This document shows, piece after piece, positions 13,416 to 32,846 of a stretch of DNA of 64,000 nt (within the stretch, counting starts at the first letter, position 1; the number at the start of each line of letters is the position of its first letter). The DNA comes from Candidatus Nitrosopelagicus sp. (lineage in GTDB: Archaea > Thermoproteota > Nitrososphaeria > Nitrososphaerales > Nitrosopumilaceae). The translations under genes were made by a program, and so were the position numbers. Location of the stretch: positions 62,001 through 126,000 of the forward strand of contig JAOMDA010000001.1 of the NCBI GenBank assembly GCA_028345295.1, given 5' to 3'. Under the pieces are notes generated by a model. The model did not search any database and was not told where the DNA came from. It saw only the letters and a program-made list of their open reading frames with translations.

Positions 13416-14969
13416 ATGTCTGAGGGTAATATTGACAATGTACTATTAGAGAAATTTGAAAAAGAAGTTCTATCACAAGTACCTCACAGAAAAGAGAAGG
13501 ATGGAAAGGTAGAGATAGTTAATGCTACACCTTTACTTGATCTTACTAATGATCTCAAGGAATGTGCAAAGACCGTTTATGACGTAGATGTCAGTGACAA
13601 AGATTTCAAAATTTATGGCAAATTTGATGGCACACTACTTACAGGTTCAATAAAACTTAGACCTGCTATCAACATTATTCATGATGCAATAACTACAGGT
13701 AAGATCAAAACTGGAACAACAGTAATTGAAGCTACTTCAGGCAACTTTGGAATTGCTCTTGGGTTATTGTCAAAAATTGGTGTAACTGCAATTGCGCTTG
13801 TCTCAAGAAAACTTCAGGAAGGTGTGTTCAAAGAATTAAGAAATGGAAATATTAGAATTATGGATCTTGACATGGATATTTGTCCTGCTCCAGGAATGGA
13901 AGACAAGCAAGATGCTTTGGTTGCAAAAGCAACTGCTGCAAACATTCGTTCACAATTAATTGAACTTGGATTTGAGCCTGAAACTTATGACAACAATATT
14001 GGAGATATTGAAACCCTTTTAGCTAAAAAAGATATTATCAATTTAGCAAAGTTTCTTGCAAAAATTTACAATTGCTTCTGTCCTGAACAATACGATAATG
14101 ATTTGAATGTTGAAGCACACAGAACCGTAACAGGTGTTGAAATTGATCAACAATTACATGAAAATGGTGAATCACTAAATGATTACAGTATTGTTTGTAC
14201 TTTTGGAACAGGTGGAACATCTGGTGGTCTTAGTAAATATTTTGATGAACAATACAACAAAAAAGGAGTTCATGTAATATTCCCACCTGATCAACAAGAT
14301 GTTGCAGGTATCAGAACAGTAGGTAATGCTGATGGCTTAAAATATTATAATCCTGATAAATATGCTGGAAAGCACCAAGTGGATTTTGAACAGGCAAAAC
14401 CACTTTTGAAATTTATGGTAGACAAAGGACATGATATGGGTGAGAGTAGTGCTCTTGAACTTTATGCAGCTTTACAAATGATACACAGTAATGGAGGAAA
14501 ATTTGTTGTTATGATCTGTGATGGAATTGACAAATATAGAAAGAATTTTGAAAAGATTGGAAACACTGTTACTCCTACACAAGTTAGCCAACAAGAAGTT
14601 GCTTCAAATGCAAGTGAGTATGATAAAGTAATTTGGGTACATACTCAATACACTCCACGTGATGAAGGACTTGAATTACTTGCAAAATCCCTTGGTATCG
14701 ATAAAAGTAAGATTATTGTACCAAATGCTAGAACTGCACAGCAATTATTGTCAGGTCAACAAGTTCCAGAAGAAATTGATCAGGCATTACAAGAATCTAA
14801 AGGAAAATCATTGATGGTATGTATGGCAGGAAGAACATCACTAATGGCTGCTAATGTTTTGGCAGAAAAAGGTATTCAGACTGATAGTCTAACTGGAGGT
14901 ATTACTGGACTTCCTGAAAGCAAAACTAAAGATCTCTCACAAATTATTGAACAAGTATCCCAATTTTGA
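13416..14969 (+). CDS. PLP-dependent cysteine synthase-like domain fused to C-terminal rhodanese-like domain
   Basis: GSIKLRPA catalytic Lys region, EATSGNFGIAL, GTGGTSGGLSKY; C-terminal LMVCMAGRTSLMAANVLAEKGIQTDSLTGGITGLP. Confidence 0.85.
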   Translation: MSEGNIDNVLLEKFEKEVLSQVPHRKEKDGKVEIVNATPLLDLTNDLKECAKTVYDVDVSDKDFKIYGKFDGTLLTGSIKLRPAINIIHDAITTGKIKTGTTVIEATSGNFGIALGLLSKIGVTAIALVSRKLQEGVFKELRNGNIRIMDLDMDICPAPGMEDKQDALVAKATAANIRSQLIELGFEPETYDNNIGDIETLLAKKDIINLAKFLAKIYNCFCPEQYDNDLNVEAHRTVTGVEIDQQLHENGESLNDYSIVCTFGTGGTSGGLSKYFDEQYNKKGVHVIFPPDQQDVAGIRTVGNADGLKYYNPDKYAGKHQVDFEQAKPLLKFMVDKGHDMGESSALELYAALQMIHSNGGKFVVMICDGIDKYRKNFEKIGNTVTPTQVSQQEVASNASEYDKVIWVHTQYTPRDEGLELLAKSLGIDKSKIIVPNARTAQQLLSGQQVPEEIDQALQESKGKSLMVCMAGRTSLMAANVLAEKGIQTDSLTGGITGLPESKTKDLSQIIEQVSQF

Positions 14970-16487: not shown

Positions 16488-17147
16488 CTATTTGGAAGAA
16501 TTTTCTGACTGTAATTTTTCCCAATCAGCTAAGAATGCTTTCAGACCCTTATCTGTTAATGCATGACCTAACATCTTACCAAGTACTGCAGGTGGCAATG
16601 TTACAACATCTGCTCCAGTCTTCGCAGCGTCAATTACATGCTGTGGATGCCTTACACTTGCAACAAGAATCTGTGTCTTAAAATCATAATTTCTAAAAAT
16701 CTGTTTGATTTCTTTGATAAGATCCATTCCAGTGTGACCAATATCATCTAACCTACCAATAAATGGACTAACGTATTTTGCACCTGCCTTTGCTGCCAAA
16801 AGTGCTTGATTTGGAGAAAAAACTAGAGTGACATTAACAGGTATTCCTTGTTCAGTCAAACTCTTGCATGCTCTTAGTCCTTCTCCTGTCATAGGGCATT
16901 TTACAACAACATGATCACCATATTCACGAAGTTTTTTTCCTTCTGCTATCATACCATCATAATCGGTACTGACCACTTCAAGACTAACATCGCCCTTGAT
17001 AATTCGTGTGATTTCCTCCATTGCTTCATGTGGGTCACCACCTTCTTTTGCTAAAAGTGAGGGGTTGGTAGTTATTCCATCAAGTAAACCCATATCGTTA
17101 TACTTTCTAATTTCATCCAGATTAGCAGTGTCTAGAAAAATTTTCAT
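16488..17147 (-). CDS. Transaldolase, fructose-6-phosphate aldolase-like type
   Basis: MKIFLDTANLDEIRKYNDMGLLDGITTNPSLLAKEG...VVKCPMT...NVTLVFSPNQALLAAKAGAKYVSPFIGR. Confidence 0.93.
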   Translation of the reverse strand: MKIFLDTANLDEIRKYNDMGLLDGITTNPSLLAKEGGDPHEAMEEITRIIKGDVSLEVVSTDYDGMIAEGKKLREYGDHVVVKCPMTGEGLRACKSLTEQGIPVNVTLVFSPNQALLAAKAGAKYVSPFIGRLDDIGHTGMDLIKEIKQIFRNYDFKTQILVASVRHPQHVIDAAKTGADVVTLPPAVLGKMLGHALTDKGLKAFLADWEKLQSENSSK

Positions 17148-18118
17148 TATTTCTTACTCCTAATCTCTTTTGCCATATTTGCTATATTAACTGATGTTAT
17201 ACCATGTTTCTCAAGTAACTCTGGAATCTCATTATCACGAGCAGATTCACCAAACATATCTTGTGCACCGATTCTTCTGATTGGGACAGGATAGGTTTCA
17301 GAAATTACTTCAGACACAGCAGAACCAAATCCTCCTAGAATATTATGCTCCTCACATGTTACAATTGCTCCTGTTTCTCTTGCAGCATTTTCTAAAATTT
17401 CTTTGTCAATAGGCTTTACAGAAAAACAATCAATAACCCTACAAGAAATTCCTTCCTGCTTTAGTTTTTCTGCAGCATCTAATGCCAATTTAACTGTAAT
17501 TCCACATGCTGCTATTGTACAATCAGAGCCGTCTCTTAGAGTGATTCCTTTACCAATTTCAAACTCTTGTGATTCATTATGAATAATTGGAACTTTGGAA
17601 CGTGCCATTCTCATATAAAATGGTCCATATTGTTGTGCAATAGTCCAAGTAAGTTTTGACACTGCAGTAGAATCAGCAGGAATAAGTACACGCATGTTTG
17701 GTATTGCACGCATAATTGCGATATCTTCAAGTTGTTGATGAGAACCGCCATCAGCACCAACTGTTAATCCTCCATGTGAAACTACTAATTTTACATCAAG
17801 TCCTTTTTTATCTCCACGTGATGGATATGCAATGGCATTTCTTATTTGATCAACACATCGTCCTGGAAGAAATATTGCATATGTACTTGCAAATGATGTT
17901 TTACCAGAATATGCTAATCCAGCAGCAACAGATACTAGATTTGCTTCTGCAATTCCAACATTAAAGAAACGTTCAGGAAACTTTTTTCCAAAACTTGCAG
18001 TTTTTAATGAATCTGTAGTATCTGCACCTAAGACTACAATATTTTTATCTTGTTCACCTAACTCAACTAAGGATTTCCCATATTCGGTTCTCATGTCACC
18101 AAGAATATCAGTACTCAT
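17147..18118 (-). CDS. Transketolase, C-terminal subunit
   Basis: VVLGADTTDSLKT...PERFFNVGIAEANLVSVAAGLA...SHGGLTVGADGGSHQQLEDIAIMR. Confidence 0.93.
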   Translation of the reverse strand: MSTDILGDMRTEYGKSLVELGEQDKNIVVLGADTTDSLKTASFGKKFPERFFNVGIAEANLVSVAAGLAYSGKTSFASTYAIFLPGRCVDQIRNAIAYPSRGDKKGLDVKLVVSHGGLTVGADGGSHQQLEDIAIMRAIPNMRVLIPADSTAVSKLTWTIAQQYGPFYMRMARSKVPIIHNESQEFEIGKGITLRDGSDCTIAACGITVKLALDAAEKLKQEGISCRVIDCFSVKPIDKEILENAARETGAIVTCEEHNILGGFGSAVSEVISETYPVPIRRIGAQDMFGESARDNEIPELLEKHGITSVNIANMAKEIRSKK

Positions 18119-19782
18119 TGATATCCTAACTCCTGAGAAATTTGTAGTAACTCGTCCTTTTTCTTACCTACTACATGCAAATCTATCCATTTATTCACTA
18201 AATCTGTTCCACCAAGTTCATTTGCTTTTTGGATTAAGAGTTTCCTTCTTGATCTTAGAATTTTGTTTCTAAATTCTCTAATAACAACTCTTACATCATT
18301 TTGGCCAATTATTGCACTACCACCAACAAATGCTCTAGCACCATCAGTAAAACAAGCCCCAACATTATCTAATGTAACGCCACCATCAGCCTCAATATAG
18401 CCATCAAATTTGTGTTCTTTTAGATTTTGAGCAAGTTTTTGGATTTTTTCATGAGACGATTCGATAAATGTTTGACCAGACTTACCTGGTACTACAGACA
18501 TTACAATTATCTGATCTAATGAAGAGATGAATTTTTCTGACCAAGTAGGAAGATCTGTATCAGGATTTATTGCAAGACCAACACCAACTTGACTGGATTT
18601 AAGAATATCATATATTTCCCCAAAACTTGATTCATCACATACTTCTGTATGAACTGTAATTATGTCACTACCAGCATCAATGTAATCTTTCACATGTTTT
18701 ACTGGTTCATTAATCATAAGATGTGTATCAAATGGAATTACAGTTAACGGTCGCAGTTCTTTTATTTTTTCATTATCAAAAGTTGTATTTGGAACAAATT
18801 GACCATCCATTACATCTAAATGGATATAATCTGCACGACCATCAACACATCGTTTCACCTCATTTTCCAGATGAGTCATATCACCAGCTATGATAGATGG
18901 AGAAATCATAAACTGTGATTCAAGTTCTTCTTCAATAATTGGAACAAATTCTGGTTTTGCAGCTTTTCCATGCCACTGTGGATTATCTTCCATGTGTTCA
19001 ACAGCTTTGCCCTTTATTGTTCTGGCAATAATGATTGTTGGTAATCCTTTAATTGATTTTGCTCTAGTAATGGCATTAGAAATTTGTTCAATTCGATGAC
19101 CATCAACTTCTATAACATTCCAACCAAATGAACGCCATTTATCACCAGTTTTCCATCTACTTGCATCTTTCCACATTTCTGATAACTCATCACTTTCAAG
19201 GTGTTCATCTAATGGCATAATTTTTTCAGTATAGGAATCTTGTTGAATAAAATTTCTGTCTAGAAAAACAGTAAGATTATCAATCTTATATTTAGCTGCA
19301 GTCATTGCAGCTTCCCAAACTTGTCCTTCATCAGTTTCGCCATCTCCCATAACCGTAAATATTCTAGTATCTTTTCCATCAAGTCTTGCAGCTAATGCAT
19401 TACCAATTGAATACGAAAGCCCTATTCCAAGTGAACCTCCACAAAATTCTACACCAGGACATTTTAAATCTGGATGTCCTTGTAGAGTTGTGCCAAACTG
19501 TCTGAGAGTCTCCATTTTAGACTCATCAAAATATCCAGATACAGCCATATTTGAAAAAAGACCTGGTGAAGCATGTCCTTTAGATAAAATTAGCTTATCT
19601 CTACCATCCCATTCCGGATTTTTTATATCATATCGAAGATGTTTATAAAATAGGCATCCCATTATTTCAGCCATTGAAAATGAACCTCCAGGGTGACCTG
19701 AGCCAGCAGCAGTTGTACCTTTGATTACTAGTTTTCTAGCTTTGAGAACATTTTTTTTAATTTGGTAATAATTTAGTCCCAT
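18115..19782 (-). CDS. Fusion: transketolase N-terminal (ThDP-binding) subunit + ribulose-phosphate 3-epimerase
   Basis: N part GSGHPGGSFSMAEIM...VMGDGETDEGQVWEA; C part from Met at ~18909 ISPSIIAGDMTHLENEVKR...IHLDVMDGQFVPNTTF...DTHLMI...VMSVVPGKSGQ...EADGGV; single ORF of 555 aa. Confidence 0.92.
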   Translation of the reverse strand: MGLNYYQIKKNVLKARKLVIKGTTAAGSGHPGGSFSMAEIMGCLFYKHLRYDIKNPEWDGRDKLILSKGHASPGLFSNMAVSGYFDESKMETLRQFGTTLQGHPDLKCPGVEFCGGSLGIGLSYSIGNALAARLDGKDTRIFTVMGDGETDEGQVWEAAMTAAKYKIDNLTVFLDRNFIQQDSYTEKIMPLDEHLESDELSEMWKDASRWKTGDKWRSFGWNVIEVDGHRIEQISNAITRAKSIKGLPTIIIARTIKGKAVEHMEDNPQWHGKAAKPEFVPIIEEELESQFMISPSIIAGDMTHLENEVKRCVDGRADYIHLDVMDGQFVPNTTFDNEKIKELRPLTVIPFDTHLMINEPVKHVKDYIDAGSDIITVHTEVCDESSFGEIYDILKSSQVGVGLAINPDTDLPTWSEKFISSLDQIIVMSVVPGKSGQTFIESSHEKIQKLAQNLKEHKFDGYIEADGGVTLDNVGACFTDGARAFVGGSAIIGQNDVRVVIREFRNKILRSRRKLLIQKANELGGTDLVNKWIDLHVVGKKKDELLQISQELGYQ

Positions 19783-30775: not shown

Positions 30776-31563
30776 ATATTTGCTTTACCGGGCATATATC
30801 CATCATAATCTACAATAACAGAAGAAAATCCAATCATTTGTAATTTTTCTGAAACTTCTTCGATTTTTTGTTGATCAATGAGTAAGGGAATCTTATCTAG
30901 ATCAACTTCAATTTTTGCAACACCATCTAAATCTCTAACACGAACTTGTTTTACATCAATACTTTGTTTAATCATTAATTCTCCCATCTCAACTCGAGCT
31001 AATTTTTCTGCAGTTACTCTTTGTCCCCATGGAATACGAGATGCCAAACATGAGTTAGATGGTCTATCATAGACAGTTAAACCAAGAGTCTTTGTTTGCT
31101 TACGGATTTCTTGTTTTGTGAAATTTGTTTCTACTAATGGGCTTTTAATTCCATTCTTATGTAATGCATCAATTCCAGGTCGATAATCGCCAAGATCATC
31201 TACATGAGTTCCATCAACAATTACATCACTACCAAGTTTTTTTGATGTTACAAGTAGTTTCTCAGATAATTCATCACGACAATAAAAACAGCGATTTTTA
31301 TCGTTTCTTACAAAATTTTCATTCTGTAATTCATCATAACTAATCAGTATATGCCTAATTCCAATTTCCTCAGTAATTTTTTTTGCAGAATCTAATTCAT
31401 CCTCTGCCAGTGTTTTATAATCCGCGGTGACAGCAACTGCATTTTTTCCAATTTTTTCAAATGCTGCATAAGCTACTAATGCACTATCAACACCACCAGA
31501 CAATGATACTAAAACACTATTTTTATCACTAAACCAGTTGAGTAGATCTTGATATTTTTTCAT
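30772..31563 (-). CDS. larE: ATP-dependent sacrificial sulfur transferase LarE
   Basis: VLVSLSGGVDSALVAYAA PP-loop; NRCFYCRDELSEKL; PSNSCLASRIPWG. Confidence 0.9.
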   Translation of the reverse strand: MKKYQDLLNWFSDKNSVLVSLSGGVDSALVAYAAFEKIGKNAVAVTADYKTLAEDELDSAKKITEEIGIRHILISYDELQNENFVRNDKNRCFYCRDELSEKLLVTSKKLGSDVIVDGTHVDDLGDYRPGIDALHKNGIKSPLVETNFTKQEIRKQTKTLGLTVYDRPSNSCLASRIPWGQRVTAEKLARVEMGELMIKQSIDVKQVRVRDLDGVAKIEVDLDKIPLLIDQQKIEEVSEKLQMIGFSSVIVDYDGYMPGKANI

Positions 31564-32777
31564 TTTCTTACTTGATTGATTTTTTCTCTAAGTAACTCTT
31601 CAGTCTGATTAAATGACATATTTAATGAATTTGAGATGGATTTTATGTCTTCAAATTCTATTTTAAAATGAGAATTTCCTTTGACTACTTTATAATTAAC
31701 TGGAAATTTATGCCCATCAATTTCAACCGTATCTTGTTCCATTGATCTAGGAACAACATATCTTTCTGAATTTCGAATTCTGACACCAAGAGTTTTGGTT
31801 TCAGCAACTAGTAATTCCAAAATAGAATTCATTGATTCTGAATCACAGATTACAGATATCAATTGAGTTGGTCTACCTTTTTTTGTGATACCAGAAGTAA
31901 TCGTTACATCTTTTGCACCATTTATCATGATTTTTTCAATCATATTTCCTAAAATTTCACCAGATACATCATCAACATTAGTCTCTAGAACTTGAACTGT
32001 ATCTTTGACTAGATTGATTTTGGTTTTTCCATTTACAATTTTTAGGACATTAGCAAATTCTCCAAAATCCTTTGAGCCTGCACCATATCCTACAGAATTT
32101 ATCTTGACTGGTGGATAAAACTCAGAACATATTTTTGTCAAATTAACTAAAATACTTGCTCCAGTAGGAGTGGTTAATTCCTCTGTAATAGTTCCACCTT
32201 GAATAATTATTTCAGAATTTTTAAAAATTTCTAAAATTGCATATGCAGGATTTGATGTTTTTCCATGTGAAAATGTAACACTGCCACCGCCAATTGCAAC
32301 AGGCGAACAAATTATTTCATCGTTAAACAGGTTCAAATCATCTAGGGCAATTGCTGTACCAAGAATATCAACTACTGTATCAATACTTGCTGCTTCATGA
32401 AAATGGACTGATGATTCTGATTCTCCATGGACCTTGGATTCTGCAGAAATTAGAGTGTTAATAGTATTTGTTACAAAATTCAAACCAGATTTAGATAGTC
32501 CAATTTTTTTTGCTGCTTCTATAATACAATTCTTTACATCTATACCCTTTCTTTCATGAATATTTTCATCAATTTCTAAAACTAACTTAGTTGCGTCTTT
32601 TCCATTTTTTTGTACAGATATAAAATCAATATTTATAATCTTAGAATTATCTAAAAATGATTCTGCAGTGTAAATACCCTCAATAATTCTTGATTTATTT
32701 GCTCCAAGACTTACTAATGATGATAATATCATATCTCCTGATATCCCAGCAATCTGTGCATCAATGATTAGAACCAT
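31560..32777 (-). CDS. larC: Nickel pincer cofactor biosynthesis protein LarC
   Basis: IDAQIAGISGDMILSSLVSLGA...VHFHEAASIDTVVDILG...ELTTPTGASIL...LETNVDDVSGE; start probably inside ORF 31560..32822. Confidence 0.9.
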   Translation of the reverse strand: MVLIIDAQIAGISGDMILSSLVSLGANKSRIIEGIYTAESFLDNSKIINIDFISVQKNGKDATKLVLEIDENIHERKGIDVKNCIIEAAKKIGLSKSGLNFVTNTINTLISAESKVHGESESSVHFHEAASIDTVVDILGTAIALDDLNLFNDEIICSPVAIGGGSVTFSHGKTSNPAYAILEIFKNSEIIIQGGTITEELTTPTGASILVNLTKICSEFYPPVKINSVGYGAGSKDFGEFANVLKIVNGKTKINLVKDTVQVLETNVDDVSGEILGNMIEKIMINGAKDVTITSGITKKGRPTQLISVICDSESMNSILELLVAETKTLGVRIRNSERYVVPRSMEQDTVEIDGHKFPVNYKVVKGNSHFKIEFEDIKSISNSLNMSFNQTEELLREKINQVRK

Positions 32778-32846
32778 AAAGTATGGATAGTAAAAATACA
32801 TAAAAATCTGTTTAAAGTTCAAAATAAGATTTAATTAATCAAAATC

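Follow-up and report, generated by a model that had tools for sequence, protein, structure and literature searches.

The fusion of a transketolase N-terminal half (TktN) with ribulose-phosphate 3-epimerase (Rpe) is already known and is not new: cluster 341.1 of Padalko, Nair and Sousa (2024, mSystems, PMC11237513) is a TktN-Rpe fusion reported in 73 of 98 Thaumarchaeota assemblies. The split-gene transketolase of Carboxydothermus hydrogenoformans has been solved and is an active alpha2beta2 enzyme (PMC7661550). How does the present locus compare with these and related systems? With TktN first and Rpe following in one chain, its product is the same fusion as the Thaumarchaeal cluster, and the description of cluster 341.1 in PMC11237513 gives nothing different in kind. 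The N and C halves of transketolase are separate, as in C. hydrogenoformans (6yak), but the C. hydrogenoformans N half has neither an epimerase nor a tail. The epimerases 1rpx, 2fli and human 3ovp/3ovr share the fold and the catalytic residues of the Rpe half, at roughly 30-39% identity in structural matches, whereas they are free-standing, without a fused TktN and without a helical tail. Finally, the archaeal Hps-Phi fusion, cited in PMC11237513, likewise joins two consecutive sugar-phosphate enzymes, but these are other enzymes of another pathway (ribulose monophosphate). Our analysis gives the junction, a fusion-specific tail, unfused adjacent precursors and single-origin trees, which the treatment of the cluster in PMC11237513 does not describe, and it corrects a first-pass annotation of this DNA on strand, internal start, origin of the tail and direction of flux.

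The window, the whole stretch of 64,000 nucleotides that was analysed, contains the following features:

18115..19782, minus strand: tktN-rpe fusion gene encoding 555 aa, with its stop codon within the coordinates (full-length homologues)
18931..19749, minus strand: TktN, ThDP diphosphate-binding domain, residues 12-284 (PF00456, 6yak chain A)
19147..19209, minus strand: insertion of ~20 residues after the ThDP motif, residues ~192-212
18907..18930, minus strand: junction, residues 285-292, Met292 included (Pfam bounds, alignment, AlphaFold)
18307..18906, minus strand: ribulose-phosphate 3-epimerase domain, residues 293-492 (Pfam, alignment, structure matches)
18118..18264, minus strand: C-terminal tail, residues 507-555, ~48 residues (alignment, profiles, AlphaFold)
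17147..18118, minus strand: transketolase C-half (TktC), Pyr and C-terminal domains, 323 aa (PF02779, PF02780)
16488..17147, minus strand: transaldolase (Tal), small TalC type, 219 aa (closest solved structures)

The 555-aa protein is a genuine TktN-Rpe fusion that keeps the catalytic residues of both halves. The first-pass annotation had reported this ORF without a strand; it is on the minus strand, the plus-strand reading of 18115-19782 being full of stops, and every motif that had been quoted is found in the protein. Pfam places Transketolase_N (PF00456, E 9.8e-43) at residues 12-284 and Ribul_P_3_epim (PF00834, E 3e-54, 183.9 bits against a cutoff of 21.1) at residues 293-492; the last TktN helix runs into the first Rpe strand through a linker of near-zero length. 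The closest solved relative of the TktN half is 6yak chain A (7.7e-72), and its GDG...N cofactor motif, as expected of a split-type N subunit, is formed by G146-D147-G148 and N177. The Rpe half matches solved Rpe structures with Foldseek TM-scores of 0.84-0.90 (target length), as befits a TIM barrel, and each half matches its expected family in Foldseek. Its metal-binding and catalytic set (two His, two Asp, Ser and Met) aligns with that of solved Rpe. Against the NCBIfam Rpe equivalog TIGR01163 the protein reaches 189 and so falls short of the cutoff of 212.6, which is an annotation threshold rather than a biochemical criterion; the broader Rpe subfamily NF004076 passes with 199.2 against 165.

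Are both active sites intact? An active site missing from one half had been named as grounds for abandoning the fusion, and in the alignment, across 69 fused homologues (60 rows from family f1 and nine from f3) every tabulated position except 489 is invariant, including TktN H30, H70, H103, GDGE 146-149, N177, H263 and H271 and Rpe S296, H321, D323, M325, H354, M356 and D466. The AlphaFold model of the single fused chain without TktC has a mean pLDDT of 80.6 and a pTM of 0.83; the Rpe core and tail are mostly at about 90 or above, and confidence is lowest at residues 179-210, around the insertion. We note that this insertion is seen in most f1 proteins and is missing from f3 and from unfused relatives. 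Judged from sequence, both halves look active and the protein is probably bifunctional; we found no proteomics or enzyme assay of the fused protein in the literature.

The fused gene, tktC and tal form an operon in which rpe lies between tktN and tktC. The neighbouring tktC overlaps the fused gene by 4 bases and shares one base with tal. That a transketolase C-half gene stands beside the fusion at 17147-18118, as first proposed, is borne out by PF02779, PF02780 and a match to the 6yaj/6yak chain (1.5e-95). The NCBIfam name for the family of the 16488-17147 product is fructose-6-phosphate aldolase; we nevertheless call it a transaldolase because its best matches among solved structures are transaldolases (1vpx, 2.1e-77), whereas fructose-6-phosphate aldolases reach only about 1e-33. 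Elsewhere in the window, a 517-aa protein (13416-14969, plus strand) has a PLP-dependent cysteine-synthase-like domain at residues 65-368 followed by ~130 C-terminal residues that have no Pfam name and look rhodanese-like by eye, and a LarC-like nickel insertion protein (31560-32822, minus strand; PF01969) is encoded in this small marine ammonia-oxidizer genome.

How did the fusion arise? We compared archaeal families: f1 is Nitrosopumilaceae, and f3 and f2, named partly on the evidence of amoA, are probably Nitrososphaeraceae and Nitrosocaldaceae respectively. In f2, f56, f61 and f62, tktN and rpe are separate but adjacent in the order tktN-rpe-tktC, followed by tal in most of the loci seen; f2 and f56 carry amoA, which was not found in the f61 and f62 genomes tested. 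Family f11 has the genes as tktN-tktC-rpe, and f66 has its rpe elsewhere. Single matches that looked like fused proteins in f61 and f62 were rejected, being really separate adjacent genes whose stops had been bridged by the search. These split families may account for the remaining assemblies of the 98. In f56 and in one f2 genome (G336) the Rpe core starts 9-12 nt beyond the TktN stop in another frame, and therefore a small frameshift close to that stop would yield the fused gene. In trees whose root is not fixed, a single branch separates the 18 fused rows from the others, with support of 100/99 for TktN, 99/97 for Rpe and 98/97 for TktC. A single origin is the simplest reading: most likely one fusion event preceded the divergence of f1 and f3, a small frameshift having removed the stop that separated two overlapping neighbours.

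The separate tktN and rpe genes of neighbouring families might suggest that two genes were joined here by an assembly or frameshift artefact, a reading that we consider virtually without a chance. The recommended search for the same fusion in other archaea covered samples spanning the phylum and the order and found it throughout f1 and f3, at full length (58-95% identity within f1 and 47-51% in f3) and with no internal stops in the matches listed, which refutes an artefact. The best 80 loci of the genome scan have it at full or near-full length and belong by record to ammonia-oxidizer lineages or unclassified archaea. Many independent assemblies thus carry it, single-contig genomes such as G003, G013, G045, G053, G102, G108, G144, G215 and G344 included, and most of the fragmented f1 cases inspected are found where a contig ends. 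One seemingly unfused member of the same genus (L163/L165, on contig C157 of G519) was set aside because that contig is probably chimeric: a bacterial-looking TktN and TktC N-half are joined mid-gene to an archaeal TktC C-half, and the end of contig C28 carries the start of the true G519 fusion. The archaeal part of C157 continues with a Tal, TPR and TBP block. In one f1 genome (G433), a second, divergent split transketolase-like pair (L162:787-2531; TktN of 272 aa, TktC of 309 aa) is present in addition to the fusion. The same relatives bear on whether the locus also yields a separate Rpe of about 28 kDa. The in-frame Met pointed out at the outset, near 18909, is residue 292, at the Rpe start; its position is precisely that of the first Rpe strand, and most f1 proteins keep it (54 of 60 rows). 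However, the other 6 of 60 have A, L or V at this position, and seven of nine f3 rows have L or F, Met also occurring in f3. Of 52 relatives, only 9 have Shine-Dalgarno-like matches of at least 4 bases upstream of this position. In the window, the sequence ahead of Met292 contains no GGAG or GGTG and nothing that convinces as a ribosome-binding site; the TktC start, by contrast, is preceded by AGGAG. A separately made epimerase is on this sequence evidence unlikely, and we give translation from Met292 very little credence.

The C-terminal tail had been read as resembling a segment of a transketolase subunit, with Rpe perhaps inserted rather than appended; the tail would then be a displaced piece of the transketolase chain. 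By eye the tail does vaguely resemble the helical TktN N-terminus, but none of TktN, TktC and Rpe needs it to be complete, and profile-profile comparison (hhalign) put the probability of a match at no more than 1% for TktN, TktC, Rpe and Tal (at most 0.3% for TktN and TktC), the value against Rpe being due to a five-residue overlap alone. A PDB search with the tail returned one chance match (E 1.4). Counterparts occur in the fused proteins of f1 and f3 and are absent from the unfused epimerases seen. In the AlphaFold model the tail extends the last epimerase helix, as a 37-residue helix (498-534) followed by a second helix (540-551). An inserted Rpe is accordingly extremely improbable, and we regard Rpe as appended to TktN, with a tail that would have arrived together with the fusion. 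Our guess is that the tail probably acts as a brace for the epimerase barrel or for the assembly. We also entertain, as a tentative and on balance unlikely proposal, that the fused Rpe and its helical tail set up a fixed assembly of transketolase and epimerase; the tail would touch either TktC or a second Rpe and would tune the two activities or couple them. Also doubtful is direct channelling of xylulose-5-P between the two active sites. In its favour, the two enzymes have this sugar phosphate in common, the linker is of nearly zero length and relatives conserve the fusion. However, the N-terminus of a TIM barrel enters the face opposite the active-site mouth; because the junction is short, the Rpe mouth should point away, and the transketolase active site sits between TktN and TktC.

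What, then, would the TktN-Rpe fusion do? We propose that the TktN half very likely forms with separate TktC a split-type alpha2beta2 transketolase, each alpha chain carrying a complete C-terminal Rpe barrel; this assembly is suggested by likeness to the solved split transketolase, which is alpha2beta2 (PMC7661550). Both enzyme activities would reside in the fused protein, and the fusion would hold transketolase and epimerase near each other at a 1:1 ratio. The source genome (92% complete) contains a single match each to PF00834 and PF00456, both falling in the fused ORF, one RpiA encoded away from the locus and one gluconeogenic FBP aldolase/phosphatase; a search for G6PD in it found none, and PHI, the ribulose monophosphate isomerase, gave only sub-cutoff matches. 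The sole-copy status of Rpe and TktN and the lack of G6PD could change with the remainder of the genome. The first-pass annotation had the epimerase delivering xylulose-5-P to transketolase. With no G6PD found and FBP aldolase/phosphatase present, transketolase should instead supply xylulose-5-P to the epimerase: transketolase would convert fructose-6-P and glyceraldehyde-3-P to xylulose-5-P, the epimerase would convert this to ribulose-5-P, and RpiA would yield ribose-5-P. We infer that pentoses probably come from fructose-6-P via the reverse non-oxidative pathway.

Transketolase, epimerase, isomerase and transaldolase are probably the organism's only route to ribose-5-phosphate, and the fusion would link two steps on which all synthesis of nucleic acids depends in these very abundant marine archaea. 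The survey offers a clean case of gene fusion in which the precursors are still visible and a new, fusion-only tail has appeared, and the fused enzyme is a testable case of whether joining consecutive enzymes alters kinetics. If the tentative tail-mediated assembly proved true, it would constitute a lineage-specific pentose-phosphate metabolon of ammonia-oxidizing archaea.
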